NCBI RefSeq assembly: GCF_007859635.1
Contig: NZ_CP042306.1
Coordinates: forward strand, 1,364,001 to 1,428,000
From: Sphingomonas panacisoli
Lineage (GTDB): Bacteria > Pseudomonadota > Alphaproteobacteria > Sphingomonadales > Sphingomonadaceae
DNA length: 64,000 nt
Direction of reading: 5' to 3'
A program made the position numbers and the translations under genes. Shown piece after piece: positions 24,222 to 33,688 of this stretch. The notes under the pieces were generated by a model, which saw only the letters and a list, made by a program, of their open reading frames with translations, did no database searches and had not been told where the DNA came from. Each line of letters starts with the position of its first letter. Within the stretch, counting starts at the first letter, position 1.

Positions 24222-26555
24222 ATGCTGAGCCAGACCCTGCGCCGCCTGCCCGCAATCCTTGCCGGATTGGGGCTGATCCTGTCGCCGATCGCCGACGCAG
24301 CGGTTTTAACGCCGATGAAGGCGGTCGACCCGTTCATCGGAACGGGCGGGGAGGGACACACCTTCCCCGGCGCCGTCGCGCCGTTCGGCATGGTGCAGCT
24401 GTCGCCCGACACCGATGCCGAGTGCGTTATCCGCAAATGCTATCCGCATGCCGCCGGCTATCGGTACGAGGACCCGACGATCCAGGGTTTCTCGATGACC
24501 CACTTTTCGGGCGCGGGGCATTCCGATCTCGGGGATTTCCTGATGATGCCCGTCGCGGGCGACGCGGTGCCGCTCGAACCGGGTGACGCGGCCAAGGCGG
24601 GCAGCGGATACCGATCACGGTTCAGCCATAGCAGCGAGATTGCGAGCGCGGGCTATTACGCGGTCACGCTGACCGATCCCGGCGTGCGCGCCGAGATGAC
24701 GGCGGGGACGCGGATCGGGGTGCAACGCTACACGTTCGGCAGGGACAAGCCGGCACATCTCGTGTTCGACCTGCGCACCAGCCTCTATAACTATCCCGGC
24801 AAGGTATCGTGGTCGTCGATCCGGTTGCGGGCCGACGGCACGCTGACCGGCGGGCGCGAGACGCGCGGCTGGGCGCCGGGGCGCAAGCTGTTTTTCGCGA
24901 TGCGCTTCTCGCGACCGCTGCTTGGCCACGACTTCCGCAACACCGAGACCGACGTGCCGTACAAGGGGTTCAAAGGACCGGGCCGATCGGGCAGCGACAT
25001 CGCCGAATTGAAAGGCAGGGCGCTGGTCGCGCGGCTCGATTTCGGGCGGCTCGACGCGCCGCTCGAGGTCAAGGTCGGTATCTCGACGGTGGACGAGGAC
25101 GGCGCGATCGCCAACCTGTCCAGCGAGCCGGGCAATTTCGACGCGATCCGGGCGAAGACCGAGTCCACCTGGGAGACGGCGCTGTCGGTGCTCGACGTTC
25201 AGGCCGACGCGAAAACAGAGCGTACCGTCTACACAGCGCTCTATCACGCGTTGATGGCGCCGAGCGTGCTGTCGGACGCCGATGGGCGCTATCGCGGCCC
25301 CGACGATCAGATCCACAAGGCCGACGGCTTCACCTTCCGTTCGACCTTTTCGCTGTGGGACACGTTCCGCGCCGAACACCCCTTGTTGACGATCGTCCAG
25401 CCGCCATCGACCACCAGCGACGTCGTCCGCTCCCTAATCGCCAGCCGCGAAGCGAGCCCATACGGGATCCTCCCGGTCTGGCAGTTCCAAGGGCAGGAGA
25501 CATGGACGATGATCGGCTATCACGCCGTTCCCGTCATCGCCGACGCGTATTTGAAGGGCATGAAGGGTTTCGACGCAAACAAGGCGCTCGACGCGATGGT
25601 CGCGAGTGCGACCTATGCGCCTTACGGCGGGCTCGGCGACTATATGACGCTCGGCTATGTCCCGATCGATCGGGAGCCGGAGGCAGCGTCGAAGACGGTC
25701 GAATACGCTTATGACGACTGGACGATCGCGCGGATGGCGCGGAAGATGGGGCGGCTGGACGTCGCCGCGACGTTCGAGAAGCGCGCGGCTTATTGGCGTA
25801 ACTCCTTCGACGCCAAGACCGGCTGGCTGCGCGCGCGCAAGGCCGACGGCAGTTTCCGCGTTCCGTTCGATCCGACCGCGATCAATTACGGGTCCGACTA
25901 TACCGAGGGGAATGCTTGGCAATATTCGTGGTTCATGCCGCACGACCAGGGTGGGCTGATCAAACTGCTCGGTGGCGACGCGGCGACCGTGGCGAAGCTC
26001 GATGCGATGTTCGATTTCGACACGTCGAAGCTCGATTATTCGAAGTCGGAGGATATCGCTGGGCTTATCGGCCAGTACATCCATGGCAACGAACCGAGCC
26101 ACCACGTCGCCTATCTCTACGCGTTCGCCGGCGCACCATGGCGGACGCAGGCGCGGCTCAAGCAGATCGTCGATAGCCAGTATAACGACACGCCGCAGGG
26201 GCTGTCGGGCAACGACGATATCGGCCAGATGTCGGCGTGGCTGGTGTTCACGTCGCTCGGCTTCTACCCCGTCGCGCCGGGCAGCGGGCAATATGTCATC
26301 GGCCGGCCGTTCGTCGATCGCGCGACGATCAAACTGCCCAACGGCAAGCGCTTCACGATCGTTGCGAACGGCATGAGCGACGCCAACAAATATGTCGGCG
26401 CGGTCGCCCTGAACGGCAAACCGCTCGACCGCGTTTACCTCACGCATGACGAGATCGAGCGCGGCGGCGAGCTTCGCTTCACGATGAGCGCGACGCCGAA
26501 CAAATCCTGGGGAACGAACCTGGCCTCGCGACCGTATTCGATGAGTGGATATTGA
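24222..26555 (+). CDS. GH92 family glycoside hydrolase (putative alpha-1,2-mannosidase)
   Basis: 777 residues with a Sec signal peptide (LPAILAGLGLILSPIADA). Typical GH92 motifs occur in order: VDPFIGTGGEGHTFPGAVAP, FGMVQLSPDT, FSMTHFSGAGH, then the catalytic (alpha/alpha)6 domain with EGNAWQYSWFMPHD, GNEPSHHVAYLY and GNDDIGQMSAWLVF, which carries the calcium- and acid-binding residues. The family removes alpha-linked mannose by a Ca-dependent inverting mechanism, often from yeast or glycoprotein glycans. No TonB-dependent receptor or sugar operon is adjacent, so it acts as a lone periplasmic enzyme here. Confidence 0.92.
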   Translation: MLSQTLRRLPAILAGLGLILSPIADAAVLTPMKAVDPFIGTGGEGHTFPGAVAPFGMVQLSPDTDAECVIRKCYPHAAGYRYEDPTIQGFSMTHFSGAGHSDLGDFLMMPVAGDAVPLEPGDAAKAGSGYRSRFSHSSEIASAGYYAVTLTDPGVRAEMTAGTRIGVQRYTFGRDKPAHLVFDLRTSLYNYPGKVSWSSIRLRADGTLTGGRETRGWAPGRKLFFAMRFSRPLLGHDFRNTETDVPYKGFKGPGRSGSDIAELKGRALVARLDFGRLDAPLEVKVGISTVDEDGAIANLSSEPGNFDAIRAKTESTWETALSVLDVQADAKTERTVYTALYHALMAPSVLSDADGRYRGPDDQIHKADGFTFRSTFSLWDTFRAEHPLLTIVQPPSTTSDVVRSLIASREASPYGILPVWQFQGQETWTMIGYHAVPVIADAYLKGMKGFDANKALDAMVASATYAPYGGLGDYMTLGYVPIDREPEAASKTVEYAYDDWTIARMARKMGRLDVAATFEKRAAYWRNSFDAKTGWLRARKADGSFRVPFDPTAINYGSDYTEGNAWQYSWFMPHDQGGLIKLLGGDAATVAKLDAMFDFDTSKLDYSKSEDIAGLIGQYIHGNEPSHHVAYLYAFAGAPWRTQARLKQIVDSQYNDTPQGLSGNDDIGQMSAWLVFTSLGFYPVAPGSGQYVIGRPFVDRATIKLPNGKRFTIVANGMSDANKYVGAVALNGKPLDRVYLTHDEIERGGELRFTMSATPNKSWGTNLASRPYSMSGY

Positions 26556-27787: not shown

Positions 27788-28495
27788 GTGACCGAGGACA
27801 ATCCCCAACCCAGGATCGTGCGCCCGTGGCTGTGGCCGGCGCTAGGGCTGTTCGTCGCCTCGCTCGTCGGGCTCGGGGCGTACCTTGCCGACGAGTTGCT
27901 CGAGGGCGAGGGGTGGGCGATCGACCAGCGCCTGTTGCTCGGACTGCGCGTGCCGGGCGATCTCCAGCGGCCGATCGGGCCGGCCTGGCTCCAGCAATCG
28001 GCGGTGGACATCTCGGCGCTCGGCGGGCCGACCTTGATGTGGCTGTTCGGCATATCCGGGCTGATCTGGCTGCTCTACCGCCGCCAGCGCGCCGAAGCGG
28101 CGTGGATTGCGGTGTCGCTGATCGGCGCAAGCCTGATCAGCAACAGCCTGAAATACGCGATCGGCCGCCCGCGCCCGGCGCTCGTCCCGCACCTCGTCCA
28201 GGTCAACAATGCGAGCTTCCCGAGCGGCCACAGCCTGGTGTCCGCCGCGCTGTACCTGACCCTGGCATTGATGCTGGCCGAGGGCGCGAAAAGCTGGTCC
28301 GCGCGGATCGCGATCGTCGGGTTCGGCGCGCTGCTCGTCGTGCTGATCGGGTGCAGTCGCGTGTATCTCGGCGTGCACTGGCCGAGCGACGTGCTGGGCG
28401 GGTGGAGCTTCGGCACCGCCTGGGCGCTGTCGGTGTTCGCCGCGAACCGCTGGCTTCACCGCACGTCCCAGGCAGCGCCGCGCCCTACGCCTTAG
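27788..28495 (+). CDS. PAP2-family phosphatase, membrane bound
   Basis: 235 residues from GTG 27788. The three-part PAP2 signature is complete: KYAIGRPRP (KxxxxxxRP), NASFPSGHS (PSGH, catalytic acid/base His) and SRVYLGVHWPSD (SRxxxxxHxxxD, nucleophile His). Six or so transmembrane helices flank the motifs. Such enzymes dephosphorylate lipids such as phosphatidic acid or undecaprenyl pyrophosphate in the periplasmic leaflet. Its stop overlaps by 4 bases the stop of the opposite-strand gene. Confidence 0.92.
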   Translation: MTEDNPQPRIVRPWLWPALGLFVASLVGLGAYLADELLEGEGWAIDQRLLLGLRVPGDLQRPIGPAWLQQSAVDISALGGPTLMWLFGISGLIWLLYRRQRAEAAWIAVSLIGASLISNSLKYAIGRPRPALVPHLVQVNNASFPSGHSLVSAALYLTLALMLAEGAKSWSARIAIVGFGALLVVLIGCSRVYLGVHWPSDVLGGWSFGTAWALSVFAANRWLHRTSQAAPRPTP

Positions 28496-28928: not shown

Positions 28929-29300
28929 ATGACGCTGACCGGCCGATGCCATTGCGGGCGCAACACGTTTGAGATCGACGGCGAGCTGCCAGAGAAACTG
29001 ACCCGCTGCACCTGCTCGTTCTGCAGCAAGCGCGGCCACCTTTACGCCTACTACAAGCCGGACAGGGTCAAATTCCCCCAAGCCGACAGCGACGCGGTGT
29101 ATCGCTGGAATTCGAAGCTGGTCGCCAATCACTTCTGTTCGGCCTGCGGCTGCGACATCGGCGCGAATAGCCCGGATTTCCAGCAGGACGGATTGTGGGA
29201 CGGCAAGACCCGCCGCATCGCGATCAACGCGCGGCTGATCGACGATTTCGAGGCGGCGGACTGGCCGGTGACGGTGGTGGATGGGAAGCATTTGTGGTGA
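28929..29300 (+). CDS. GFA family protein (CENP-V/glutathione-dependent formaldehyde-activating fold)
   Basis: 123 residues from ATG 28929, preceded by GAAGGAGA. Zinc-binding Cys pattern is intact: GRCHCGRNTFE, LTRCTCSFCSKRG and HFCSACGCDIG. The family includes glutathione-dependent formaldehyde-activating enzymes, but most members, including this one, have no proven activity. Confidence 0.85.
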   Translation: MTLTGRCHCGRNTFEIDGELPEKLTRCTCSFCSKRGHLYAYYKPDRVKFPQADSDAVYRWNSKLVANHFCSACGCDIGANSPDFQQDGLWDGKTRRIAINARLIDDFEAADWPVTVVDGKHLW

Positions 29301-29310
29301 GGCGGGGCCG

Positions 29311-29496
29311 CTAAGTTGACACCAGGTTGACACTAGCGACGTGGTTTTGCGGGGCTGGTCTCTCCTGCTTGAAGGCGTAATGCCGGTCGGGCGTCCAGCC
29401 GTCATGCCGCGCACGGCCGGGGACGGGGGCGAAGATCAGCGGATCGTCGTCGGGGGTGAGGGCGGCTGGCGTATGGGGAGGGGACTGGTCGCGCAT
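29311..29496 (-). pseudogene. N-terminal remnant of a sphingomonad HTH-type protein
   Basis: 61 residues. The middle segment DDDPLIFAPVPGRARHDGWT, followed by PDRHYAF, resembles the N-terminus of a frequent sphingomonad family in which this stretch leads into a helix-turn-helix domain (from memory). Here the sequence turns into an unrelated short tail (KQERPAPQNHVASVNLVST) at a tandem GTTGACACCA/GTTGACACTA repeat. It probably marks a deletion or insertion scar beside the HIRAN/HipA genes. Confidence 0.4.
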
Positions 29497-29553
29497 CGAC
29501 CAGGGTAGATCAGAGGAAATCCTACATTGGAAGTTTGATCTCGCCCAATTCCG

Positions 29554-30273
29554 TCACTTTTTCGACGAAGCCTTTGACACCGACACAAAGACATAAAGTC
29601 GCGGTGCTTCGACTGTACCGTTCAGCCTATCTACGACCGCGGACAATCGATCATCGGCTAACCACTGTCGGAAAGCACGCGTTTGCAGTCGATTGACCCA
29701 GCCAACAAGCTCACAACCAGTTCGAATCGCAACCGCCTCGGGATCCTTTGGGTTCTCAGGATCAAGTTCAAACGACACCACTTCACCGGCAGAGACAAGC
29801 GGACATCCCGCTAAATGCCGATACCCTGATGCTTCGATTACCATTTCGCGATCGTCGTCTGTATCATCAAGCGGATCAATGATGGAGAAACCATCGCTGG
29901 GCAGCTTTGCCTCGGAAGCGCCGAGGAGAGCAAAATCGGTAAACTTGGCCGCTGGGTCGATACGAAGTGTTTCTAAATAGCGTGGAAAGTCAGAGCGCTT
30001 GCGCGGAGGTAGCCTCCGCATAAACGTTTCCAGGACATCATTAGACCATTCGCCAGCACGCAAAGCAAAAGCTGGATAACCAACAAATCCTTCATCCCTC
30101 GCTCCAGCAAGCGCATCATCTGAGAAATAGCGAAACGTAACTTCTGAGTCCGAAGCCGCCGACGATCGGCGCAATTCTCCGATTTCCCATCGACGGCGAG
30201 AGGAACCCTTACGTGAGGACTGCCACGCAAGAAGGAGCCTTAGAGGCTCTGAAAGTCGTCGAATCTGTTGCAT
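29554..30273 (-). CDS. HIRAN-domain protein with a HipA N-lobe-like N-terminus
   Basis: 239 residues. About 10-125 resembles the N-subdomain of HipA: LLLAWQ, RWEIGEL, VTFRYF, GFVGYPAF, LETFMRRLPP and DFALLGASEAKLPSDGF match its strand and helix order. About 153-205 is HIRAN-like: LAGCPLVSAGEVVSFELDPE, NPKDPEAVAI and GWVNRLQTRAFRQWL. HIRAN modules bind DNA 3' ends or stalled forks in eukaryotic HLTF; bacterial roles are poorly known. It starts 3 bases after the kinase stop (TAACCGATG), so the two are co-translated. Base composition is more AT-rich than flanking genes. Possible antitoxin or target-recognition partner of the kinase; inference. Confidence 0.65.
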   Translation of the reverse strand: MQQIRRLSEPLRLLLAWQSSRKGSSRRRWEIGELRRSSAASDSEVTFRYFSDDALAGARDEGFVGYPAFALRAGEWSNDVLETFMRRLPPRKRSDFPRYLETLRIDPAAKFTDFALLGASEAKLPSDGFSIIDPLDDTDDDREMVIEASGYRHLAGCPLVSAGEVVSFELDPENPKDPEAVAIRTGCELVGWVNRLQTRAFRQWLADDRLSAVVDRLNGTVEAPRLYVFVSVSKASSKK

Positions 30274-30276
30274 CGG

Positions 30277-31233
30277 TTATCGGAGTTCCTGCAACAGATG
30301 GTGTCTATATTTCGTCAATGCAAGAACAAAAGATGAACGCTCTTGCGTCATGTCGATTGTTCGGGCAAGTTGCGTAACGCCATTGATTTCCTCAGCGATA
30401 GATTCCCAACCCGCATTCGCAACCATCCTCACCGCGCGACGGGCAGAAGGATGTGACTCGAGCAGCCGATGCAGCATTTCGAAATGGCCAAGCCGCCCAT
30501 CGCTTAAAGTCCACTTCATGTGATGCCGTCCGCGACTCACATATCTAGCTAAATGCACATCGTCTTCGAACTTTGGCAATGCTGCCTCGGTAATCTCATG
30601 ACCTAAACTGGTTCCGTTATCGAAAGCGGGGGAAAAACGGACTCGAGGGACAGTGCCACTATTGCTCCAAAGTAGCCCCCAGTTTTCTTGATGGCGATCG
30701 GTGTTTCCTATCAATGCGTCGAAAGCAAAAGTCCTAGCCCAATACAGAATTGGCGAAGGCATCGAACGGCGGGCACGAACGGCATTCAAGAACGCCAAGA
30801 CCGTTCGAAGGTTGTGCTGACTACCCGTTTTAACATCGAAGTCCGGGATTATTCTCTTCATATATTCTACGCCGTGCACGAAGCGATCGGTCCCGACGGT
30901 TTGGTTCATGTCGTAAAACCACTCGATCAACGCGCCACGTTGATCGGTCGAAGAATCCACGGCCGCGTGAGCTGGAGGAACTGGAACCTTCGCCGCTAAA
31001 CCTATTCGATAGGCGAGTATTTCCGCCCAATACTGGTTGGGGTAATTGTGTGATGACCGCTTAAACAGATAATGATGCCCAGACCGGATCAGCGGACTTG
31101 GCGACGGATCAGGAGCAATCAAAAGCTCCTTTGGACGGCTACCGATTGGATATATTTCGTAATTTTCGTCACGTTGCCAATCGGCAACGTCAAAAATAAA
31201 CTCTTGATCTGGGAGAATTCCCAACGCCCTCAC
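30277..31233 (-). CDS. HipA-like serine/threonine kinase
   Basis: 318 residues. Candidate ATP-binding Lys58 in HYLFKRSS, Glu71 in QYWAEILAYRIG, catalytic loop GNTDRHQENWG at 176-186 (Asp179, Asn184) and metal-binding Asp205 in SPAFDNGTS. These are the active-site residues of HipA/CtkA-type kinases; the N-subdomain normally present in HipA is missing and seems to be supplied by the downstream HIRAN protein. Start is GTG 31233, overlapping the uvrD stop by GTGA, which places the kinase in the uvrD transcript. No HipB-like HTH antitoxin is visible. HipA-type toxins phosphorylate aminoacyl-tRNA synthetases; the target here is unknown. Confidence 0.8.
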   Translation of the reverse strand: MRALGILPDQEFIFDVADWQRDENYEIYPIGSRPKELLIAPDPSPSPLIRSGHHYLFKRSSHNYPNQYWAEILAYRIGLAAKVPVPPAHAAVDSSTDQRGALIEWFYDMNQTVGTDRFVHGVEYMKRIIPDFDVKTGSQHNLRTVLAFLNAVRARRSMPSPILYWARTFAFDALIGNTDRHQENWGLLWSNSGTVPRVRFSPAFDNGTSLGHEITEAALPKFEDDVHLARYVSRGRHHMKWTLSDGRLGHFEMLHRLLESHPSARRAVRMVANAGWESIAEEINGVTQLARTIDMTQERSSFVLALTKYRHHLLQELR

Positions 31234-33539
31234 CCCACCGTCACAAAGCTATCCATCACCCGCTTCCGCCCGGCCTGTTCGAATTCGATCTCCAGCTTGT
31301 TGCCTTCGATCTCCTCGATCGTGCCGTAGCCGAACTTCTGGTGGAACACGCGCATCCCTATCGCCACATCGGACCTACCTTTGTTGCCCAGGCTGACCGC
31401 GCTCGCGCGGGCTTCAACCACCCGCGCTGGCTCCCGCGTGAAGGTGCGACTGGTGAAGCTGCCGCCGGGCTTCGCGAAGTCGACCCCCGCCGCGCGCTGC
31501 CAGCCCGGGCCGCGGCCCGTCCCGCGCGCGACGTCCGCGAAGGGGTCGGCGCGTTCGCTCCAATTGGCGCGCCACAGGCTTTCGCCGCCCGCCATGCTGC
31601 TCTCGCTGTCGATATGCGCGTCGGGTAGTTCGGCGACGAAGCGGCTGGGGATGCTCGACGTCCACTGGCCGTAGATGCGGCGGTTGGCGGCGTGGATGAT
31701 CGTCGCGCGGCGCCGCGCGCGGGTGATCGCGACATAGGCCAGGCGGCGTTCCTCCTCAAGGCTGGCGAGCCCGCCTTCGTCGAGCGAGCGTTGCGAGGGG
31801 AACAGCCCTTCCTCCCACCCGACCAGGAACACGGTGTCGTATTCCAGACCCTTGGCGGCGTGGATCGTCATGATCGTGACCTTGGCCTCGTCGGCCGCGG
31901 CGTCATTGTCCATCACGAGGGAGACGTGTTCGAGGAACGCGCCGAGATTTTCGTATTCCTCCATCGCGCGGACGAGTTCGGTGAGGTTTTCGAGGCGTCC
32001 GGCGGCCTCGGCCGATTTCTCCGCCTGCCACATCGCGGTGTAGCCGCTTTCGTCGAGGATCTGGCGCGCGAGGTCGGGGTGGGGGAGTTCCTGCGCCATT
32101 TGCCGCCAGCGGGCGAGGTCGCCGACGAGGTTGCCGAGCGCGCGGCGCGCCTGGGGCGTGAGTTCGTCGGTGTCGAGGATGCGCGCGGCGGCGCTGGTCA
32201 GCGGCACGCCTTCGGCACGGGCGAGCTGGTGGACCTTCGCCAGCGCCTTGTCGCCCAGGCCGCGCTTCGGCGTATTGACGATGCGTTCGAAGGCGAGGTC
32301 GTCGGCGGGCTGGGCGACGACGCGGAGATACGCGAGCGCGTCGCGGATTTCGGCGCGCTCGTAGAAGCGGAAGCCTCCGACGATGCGATAGGGCAGGCCG
32401 ATCGCGATGAAGCGGTCTTCGAACTCTCGGGTCTGGTGCTGCGCGCGGACCAGGATCGCGACATCGTCCAGATTGGTGCCGTTACGCTGCGCCGCCTCGA
32501 TCTCGTCGCCGACGCGGCGCGCTTCTTCGGGGCCGTCCCACACGCCGAGCACCTTCACCTTCTCGCCGGCGTCGAGTTCGGTCCAGAGTTCCTTGCCTAG
32601 CCGGCCGCTATTGTTGGCGATGACGCCCGACGCGGCGGCGAGGATGTGCGGGGTGGAGCGGTAATTCTGTTCGAGCCGGATGACCTTCGCGCCCGGAAAG
32701 TCCTTTTCGAACTTCAGGATGTTTTCGACCTGCGCGCCGCGCCACGAATAGATCGACTGGTCGTCGTCGCCGACGCAGCACAGGTTTTTGCGCTCCTGTG
32801 CGAGCAGCCGGAGCCAGAGATACTGGACGCTGTTGGTGTCCTGATACTCATCGACCATGATGTATTTGAAGCGCCGCTGATAGTCGGCGAGCACTTCGCG
32901 GTGGCCGCGCAGGATGGTCAGCATGTGGAGCAAAAGGTCGCCGAAGTCGCAGGCGTTGAGCGCCTTCAGCCGCGCCTGATACATGGCGTAGAGCTCGCCG
33001 CCGCGGCCGTTGGCGTAGCGCTCGCTCTCGCCCGCCTGGATGTCGGCGGGGACGAGGCCCTTGTTCTTCCATTCGTCGATGAGCCCGCCGAGCTGGCGCG
33101 CAGGCCAGCGTTTTTCGTCGAGATCGGCGGCGAGGACGAGCTGCTTCAGCAAGCGCAGCTGGTCGTCGGTGTCGAGGATCGTGAAATTGGGGTGCAGCCC
33201 GACGAGTTCGGCATGGCGGCGCAGCATCTTCGCGCCGATCGCGTGGAACGTGCCTAGCCACGGCATCCCCTCGACGACGTCGCCGACCAGCGCGCCGACG
33301 CGATGCCGCATCTCGCGCGCGGCCTTGTTGGTGAAGGTGACCGACAGGATCTCCGACGGCCACGCCTTGCGGGTGTAGAGCAGATGGCCGAGGCGGGCCG
33401 TGAGCGCGGCGGTCTTGCCCGTGCCCGCGCCGGCAAGGACCAGGACCGGGCCTTCGGTGGTCAGCACGGCCTCACGCTGCGGCGGGTTGAGGCCGCGGAG
33501 GTACGGGGGATCGTCGGGCAAGCTTACAGGCTGAGTCAC
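31230..33539 (-). CDS. uvrD: ATP-dependent DNA helicase UvrD/PcrA type
   Basis: 769 residues. Superfamily 1A helicase motifs in order: Q motif region LNPPQREAVLTTEGPVLVLA, Walker A GAGTGKTAALTARL, SVTFTNKAAREM, Walker B MVDEYQDTNSVQYLWLRLLA, GDDDQSIYSWRGAQ, EQNYRSTPHIL, IMTIHAAKGLEYDTVFLVGW and YVAITRARRRA. The C-terminal tail (FHQKFGYGTIEEIEGNKLEI) is the Tudor-like domain of PcrA/UvrD. The start is taken as GTG 33539 (VTQPVSLPDDPPYLRGLN); the longer frame from 33659 lacks family support. Acts in nucleotide excision and mismatch repair. Confidence 0.95.
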   Translation of the reverse strand: MTQPVSLPDDPPYLRGLNPPQREAVLTTEGPVLVLAGAGTGKTAALTARLGHLLYTRKAWPSEILSVTFTNKAAREMRHRVGALVGDVVEGMPWLGTFHAIGAKMLRRHAELVGLHPNFTILDTDDQLRLLKQLVLAADLDEKRWPARQLGGLIDEWKNKGLVPADIQAGESERYANGRGGELYAMYQARLKALNACDFGDLLLHMLTILRGHREVLADYQRRFKYIMVDEYQDTNSVQYLWLRLLAQERKNLCCVGDDDQSIYSWRGAQVENILKFEKDFPGAKVIRLEQNYRSTPHILAAASGVIANNSGRLGKELWTELDAGEKVKVLGVWDGPEEARRVGDEIEAAQRNGTNLDDVAILVRAQHQTREFEDRFIAIGLPYRIVGGFRFYERAEIRDALAYLRVVAQPADDLAFERIVNTPKRGLGDKALAKVHQLARAEGVPLTSAAARILDTDELTPQARRALGNLVGDLARWRQMAQELPHPDLARQILDESGYTAMWQAEKSAEAAGRLENLTELVRAMEEYENLGAFLEHVSLVMDNDAAADEAKVTIMTIHAAKGLEYDTVFLVGWEEGLFPSQRSLDEGGLASLEEERRLAYVAITRARRRATIIHAANRRIYGQWTSSIPSRFVAELPDAHIDSESSMAGGESLWRANWSERADPFADVARGTGRGPGWQRAAGVDFAKPGGSFTSRTFTREPARVVEARASAVSLGNKGRSDVAIGMRVFHQKFGYGTIEEIEGNKLEIEFEQAGRKRVMDSFVTVG

Positions 33540-33688
33540 GCGTGAACAGGTAGGGAACGAGGGCGGCGCGGGCAACCCGGCATCCGCCGCTTGCGGCCGC
33601 GCACCGACCTCTCCGGATCGGTCCGATCTCGCTTTGCCTCGCAATGGGCTCGTCCGCATCCTCGCGCGGCAACGACGAGGGGGTGGAC

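Follow-up and report, generated by a model that had tools for sequence, protein, structure and literature searches.

A hipIN-type kinase–HIRAN gene pair at the 3′ end of uvrD, an insertion hotspot in a sphingomonad genus

What kind of module is formed by a shortened HipA-like kinase gene and a HIRAN-domain gene that directly follow uvrD, and does the helicase gene belong to it? The locus that raises this question lies in a 64,000-nucleotide stretch of sphingomonad DNA (the window), taken from a host genome that consists of one contig of 3.4 Mb. The original prediction, made from the letters alone, had proposed a split HipA-like kinase with a HIRAN-tagged partner, acquired from elsewhere and possibly expressed and acting as one unit with uvrD. 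Re-reading of the sequence confirmed the positions and strands on which it was built. The gene order on the minus strand is uvrD, a 318-aa ORF and a 239-aa ORF; the GTG start of the kinase overlaps the TGA stop of uvrD as GTGA at 31230–31233, and the 3-base gap between kinase and partner reads TAA-CCG-ATG (kinase stop, CCG, partner start). The features of the locus are as follows.

29311..29496, minus strand: gene remnant of 61 aa, whose relatives follow the cargo in loci L227, L194 and L223
29554..30273, minus strand: hipN-like partner gene (PDC-M03B), 239 aa, HipS-like plus HIRAN
29560..29862, minus strand: putative HIRAN half of the partner, residues 138–238
29863..30246, minus strand: HipS-like or HipA N-subdomain-1-like half of the partner, residues 10–137
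30277..31233, minus strand: hipI-like kinase gene (PDC-M03A), 318 aa, HipA/HipT/CtkA kinase core without N-subdomain-1
30613..30621, minus strand: DNG, kinase residues 205–207, putative Mg-binding position, assigned from HipA; D205 and N206 identical in 97/97 kinases
30676..30708, minus strand: catalytic motif GNTDRHQENWG, kinase residues 176–186; N177, D179, H181 and N184 identical in 97/97 kinases
31230..33659, minus strand: uvrD, native to the genome, with the insertion hotspot at its 3′ end
31242..31256, minus strand: cargo-associated form of the last uvrD codons (ATGGATAGCTTTGTG), an att-like junction

The kinase matched Pfam HipA_C (1.2e-10), and an AlphaFold2 model of the kinase alone, built with 38 sequences (pLDDT 91.1, pTM 0.91), gave CtkA (1.0e-10), HipT of HipBST (5.9e-7) and HipA (7.7e-7) as its top Foldseek matches. 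The model consists of the kinase core only and lacks the HipA N-subdomain-1. Residues K58, E71, D172, N177, D179, H181, N184 and D205, to which we assign presumed roles from general knowledge of HipA, are identical in all 97 aligned kinases, as expected of the proposed enzyme that keeps the HipA active site and lacks the N-subdomain. Next to the invariant G31 the window kinase has S32, where 74 of the 97 kinases have Ala and 17 have Ser or Thr.

When each chain was predicted singly, a HipA N-lobe-like half appeared in the partner and a kinase core without it in the kinase. The N-subdomain assignment in the partner was backed by profile–profile comparison with decoys and by structure alignment, the best structural match of the N-terminal half being 7vkb_B, the small chain of a kinase complex. 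The HIRAN assignment was backed by the fold, which matched the HLTF HIRAN domain, and by a profile search, with a Pfam HIRAN match (1.3e-4, 22.1 bits) that lies under the gathering score of 24.7 bits. These results agree with the proposed fusion of a HipS-like HipA N-subdomain to a HIRAN domain. A phmmer search of the partner against the PDB returned chance matches only, and the profile search did better; the top 50 Foldseek matches of the partner contained no HipA or HipS chain, and a later VIA alignment found one. Neither protein matched an NCBIfam entry.

The layout, which the original prediction could not place in earlier work, has been described. Gerdes, Baerentsen and Brodersen defined hipIN in 2021 as a gene pair in which HipN, a HipS-like protein with a HIRAN domain, comes after the HipI core kinase (PMC8262856, accessible text), and PADLOC holds the pair as PDC-M03: its best profiles were PDC-M03A for the kinase (1.5e-39) and PDC-M03B for the partner (1.5e-24), in adjacent genes. 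By sequence, the window pair is hipIN, the PADLOC candidate defence system PDC-M03. The PDCs derive from a guilt-by-embedding approach and most are without experimental validation; the accessible main text of that work (PMC12988326, 2026) does not name PDC-M03.

The family is patchily distributed, with the partner found in 2/298 family genomes and 15/398 phylum genomes, its own included. A kinase-profile scan of genome contigs yielded 186 relatives, and a HIRAN ORF followed the kinase directly on the same strand in the best 80 of the 186, a rate of 80/80 that overstates pairing for distant relatives because the profile derives from kinases whose HIRAN partner was already known and the survey was limited to the 80 best matches. 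Among these 80 loci, L025 has a short kinase ORF, and L027 and L079 each have a short partner ORF. Among 35 viral-contig loci the HIRAN gene was separate in 19, fused with the kinase as a single HipL-type chain in 12 and missing in 4, all of them weak matches, so that 31/35 were paired and the predicted pairing is conserved in both sets. In the first locus set, the kinase was split in L004, seen only as an 84-aa piece in L011 and without an ORF in L012, and a contig end limits the view in L013, L016 and L017. Pairwise identities of kinases and partners correlated strongly (r 0.91 over 95 pairs, at most 0.20 in 999 permutations), as they also would if the operon were inherited as a whole. Relatives of HipN occurred in two phage records; a single-protein query of the viral contigs gave none, nor did plasmids.

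Several relatives lie inside or beside restriction operons. The gene hsdS is directly upstream of the pair in L026, L028, L029, L033 and L037, and HsdM directly downstream in L075; a DpdE/DrmD-like (DISARM-like) helicase is upstream in L023, with a similar ORF start in L040, and a DrmMI-like methylase is downstream in L025. Type IIG enzymes occur at the hipIN loci L050 and L094, a convergent type I restriction enzyme at L061, and other PDC neighbours in L026 (PDC-S62, downstream), L063 (PDC-S18) and L099 (PDC-M66B). The neighbour scan covered 14 distinct proteins, hand-picked because they looked informative, and one phage exonuclease, and no rate of defence linkage is claimed from it. In C. 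difficile phage phiCDKH02 a hipIN pair lies beside the integrase. At 19 of 70 measurable loci a mechanically called same-strand ORF of at least 100 aa ends no more than 50 nt upstream of the pair. A gene for an Rv2179c-like 3′–5′ exonuclease directly precedes the fused HipL-type kinase at 13/13 loci (L018:6492-8696, L112, L113 and L115–L124), several of which are near-duplicate phage-type records. The exonuclease gene also precedes two hipIN loci, L096 and L114.

Composition argues for a foreign origin of the window pair. As predicted, both genes are more AT-rich than their surroundings, with a GC content of 50.5% for the kinase and 52.5% for the partner vs 67.5% for uvrD and 64.8% for the window. 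The suspected gene remnant on the far side is real: 29 residues of the ORF at 29311–29496 align with the beginning of a 141-aa ORF located after the L227 cargo (62% identity, 6e-8) and with part of L194 (62% identity, 1.6e-6), and 22 residues align with part of L223 (4e-5); a Pfam search of the ORF gave no match. The hipIN pair was very probably acquired horizontally. A stretch of ~35 bases at the end of the remnant (window 29307–29355) is present at six other sites of the same genome.

The position of the pair proved to be shared with other foreign DNA. Of 61 genus genomes, 60 contain uvrD; the downstream stretch was taken in 59 (G701 omitted), and L238 was dropped for an unrecognisable UvrD C-terminus, leaving 58 stretches. 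With cargo called at <57.5% GC in the first 500 nt, a cut-off picked after the values had been seen, 15/58 stretches carry AT-rich cargo after uvrD, and 14/58 do so at 55%. Control sites fell below 57.5% in 0/29 cases after recA, 1/29 after gyrB and 1/29 before uvrD, or 2/87 together (Fisher p 2e-5, relatedness ignored). The cargos show no similarity to one another over their first 900 nt at E 1e-4, save for one short stretch shared by L137 and L241. The downstream neighbours at 27788–28495 and 24222–26555 of the window have homologues in G704 and G716, two genomes that carry other cargo in the slot; these neighbours we take to be PAP2 and GH92, with GFA in G716. In this genus the uvrD 3′ end (31230–31260 in the window) is a hotspot for insertions. 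Among the search listings examined, no earlier report of such a hotspot or of its att-like junction was found.

PADLOC, applied to cargo ORFs (the control sites were compared by GC alone), gave matches in 7/15 cargos, the hipIN pair of the window included and one match being weak. The other six are as follows.

L227 cargo: AriAB, 6.5e-159
L197 cargo: AriA, 5.7e-25
L199 cargo: PDC-S15, 6.3e-42
L231 cargo: RmrA, 9.5e-111
L245 cargo: PDC-M66A, 5.6e-16, and PDC-M66B, 2.6e-14
L137 cargo: PD-T7-4, weak, 2.1e-8

The remaining 8/15 cargos had no match in the ORFs scanned, which were 20 of the 26 low-GC ORFs of at least 90 aa in the 14 non-window cargo stretches. In a second set, the cargo of the newly found core-pattern genomes described below, PADLOC matched two of ten proteins, from 9 of 11 fetched loci, and both matches were weak, so the cargo does not consist solely of defence genes; by Pfam, one of these two proteins carries HSDR_N and the other a TIR match below the cut-off, and a third protein carries DUF4145. 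At L245:78-1648, the cargo in this uvrD slot encodes a HipA-like kinase of another kind (HipA_2 with DUF3037, PDC-M66).

The last codons of uvrD differ between occupied and empty sites. In the 56 stretches where the terminal DSFV could be read, its Phe is encoded by TTT in 12/14 stretches with cargo and in 1/42 without, and in a comparison of 9 cargo-bearing and 21 other genomes the synonymous shift was limited to the last few uvrD codons. This cargo-linked switch suggests site-specific entry and looks like the regeneration of an attachment site. That cargo might instead enter only where uvrD already has TTT is less likely, given that this codon occurs in just one of the cargo-free stretches. 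A core pattern derived from the cargo-linked form is present in 25/151 genus genomes at 27 places (25 ordinary uvrD tails and 2 diverged uvrD-like tails) and is missing in 3/15 cargo genomes (L220, L223 and L227); of 12 newly found core-pattern genomes with an ordinary uvrD end, 8 have <57.5% GC downstream, a value measured at core-pattern genomes only. A degenerate uvrD 3′ fragment with an att-like core was seen on contig 411 of G738 (L378), with an unrelated gene ahead of it and AT-rich DNA behind, and an AT-rich gene elsewhere in G710 (L370) encodes a protein whose C-terminal tail resembles that of UvrD and has the same core.

A search of the 58 stretches for a second core copy downstream, with up to 3 mismatches, gave one reverse-strand match, in a cargo-free genome (L234). 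A far-end search with host-type codons matched no cargo-bearing stretch, and matched one cargo-free stretch (L239) with 4 mismatches; the search reached ~6 kb in most stretches and ~31 kb in the window, so that a farther cargo end would escape it. None of the tyrosine-integrase matches listed for the 15 cargo genomes, some of whose contigs are short, falls within ~40 kb of the uvrD end. We tentatively propose, and hold with some doubt, that the uvrD 3′ end serves in this genus as a site-specific dock for small integrase-less cargos, several of them defence systems; that on entry the last uvrD codons are converted to the att-like form, and a toxin module lacking its own promoter can come to overlap uvrD translationally; and that hipIN is a cassette of this sort, mobilised by a recombinase supplied from elsewhere.

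The hotspot bears directly on whether uvrD, kinase and HIRAN protein form a functional DNA-damage unit. The same-strand arrangement and the GTGA overlap would fit such a unit, yet uvrD adjoins the pair in none of the 80 genome loci (four of which hold <300 nt upstream of the kinase) and, among the fetched stretches, is contained in those of L030 and L052 alone, at a distance of kilobases. Because the slot also holds unrelated cargo, in close genomes as well, and because the first cargo ORF is on the opposite strand in 7/15 slots, this part of the original prediction is unsupported and the unit very improbable, while the split kinase, the HipS–HIRAN partner, their pairing and their acquisition stand. 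The overlap most likely reflects the landing site of the cargo, and could supply expression. Promoter-like sites (2 vs 1.0 in shuffles) and terminator-like sites (4 vs 2.4) are near the shuffle level, so that neither an own promoter nor the lack of one can be claimed, and an Rfam scan of 29000–31700 gave no match.

The role of HipN can be read in several ways. We lean slightly towards a toxin–antitoxin or abortive-infection module in which HipN is a HIRAN-tagged, DNA-end-sensing antitoxin. HipN might instead be a required kinase subunit, its HipS-like domain completing the fold and its HIRAN domain directing the enzyme to DNA ends, with proteins of repair or of phage replication as the substrates there. 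In HipA the N-subdomain belongs to the enzyme itself, the 13 fused HipL-type proteins hold all three domains in one chain and the components look co-inherited, all of which would suit a subunit; against this, the HipS homologue of hipBST is an antitoxin (accessible text of PMC8262856), and the match of the HipN N-terminal half to 7vkb_B fits a HipS-type role. We consider the subunit unlikely. We give about as little credence to a plain toxin–antitoxin or persistence module that is kept for its own stability and uses HIRAN as a mere DNA tether for autoregulation. No HTH gene adjoins the pair in the ORF list or by Pfam, which could make HIRAN the DNA-binding part, and relatives are found in viral contigs and at scattered sites; the HIRAN domains studied so far, however, bind DNA ends (PMC8262856, part available), and the restriction operons around several relatives also speak against a tether.

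The antitoxin or sensor role that had been suggested for the partner is plausible from homologues and context, from which a toxic kinase, an antitoxic partner, the sensing of ends and a defence against phages can likewise be proposed for the window pair. In the favoured module, HipI would be a HipA-type Ser/Thr kinase core without an N-terminal lid, and HipN would give the lid in trans through its HipS-like domain and keep the kinase inactive. The putative HIRAN domain, with its sub-threshold Pfam match, may sense DNA ends, for example on the replication intermediates of phages or on the products of restriction; once bound to them, it would release the kinase to phosphorylate an essential factor, probably of translation, and infection would abort. 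The window copy would have come as compact cargo at the uvrD 3′ end, with expression perhaps by read-through from uvrD.

The authors of hipIN proposed in 2021 that HIRAN recognises phage DNA ends and that the outcome is abortive infection (PMC8262856, accessible text). No experimental test of hipIN was found in the literature searched, a search whose coverage excluded most subscription journals and all bioRxiv preprints. The window copy and the relatives in restriction operons are concrete pairs for asking whether HIRAN switches a HipA-type kinase. The hipIN layout is already known and the hotspot is the fresher part, a new place to seek defence genes in an environmental genus.

Among known systems, the diDNase–HipA–HIRAN clusters of Gram-positive bacteria, in which HipA–HIRAN genes adjoin diDNase genes (PMC11706625, accessible text), share with the window an adjacent HipI-type kinase and HIRAN gene, but no such nuclease is beside the window pair. 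HipBST likewise combines a core kinase with a separate HipS-like protein; as described in the available part of PMC8262856, however, it has the HTH protein HipB, an upstream HipS and no HIRAN, whereas in the window uvrD is directly upstream of the kinase and the HipS-like protein is downstream. HipL has the same three domains in the same order as the window pair but in one polypeptide, whereas the window has two ORFs with a stop between them. PDC-M03, itself a computed candidate, is the best profile for both adjacent window genes. Core Hip kinases without N-subdomain-1 are ~279–321 aa long, a range that covers HipG, HipI, HipJ and HipM jointly (PMC8262856, accessible text), and the window kinase, at 318 aa, falls within it and has the conserved catalytic and Mg-binding motifs. 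With hipIN the window pair shares gene order, kinase size, the missing N-subdomain-1, a downstream HipS-like partner with a C-terminal HIRAN domain and the lack of an HTH gene; nothing essential differs, and the window copy sits at uvrD.
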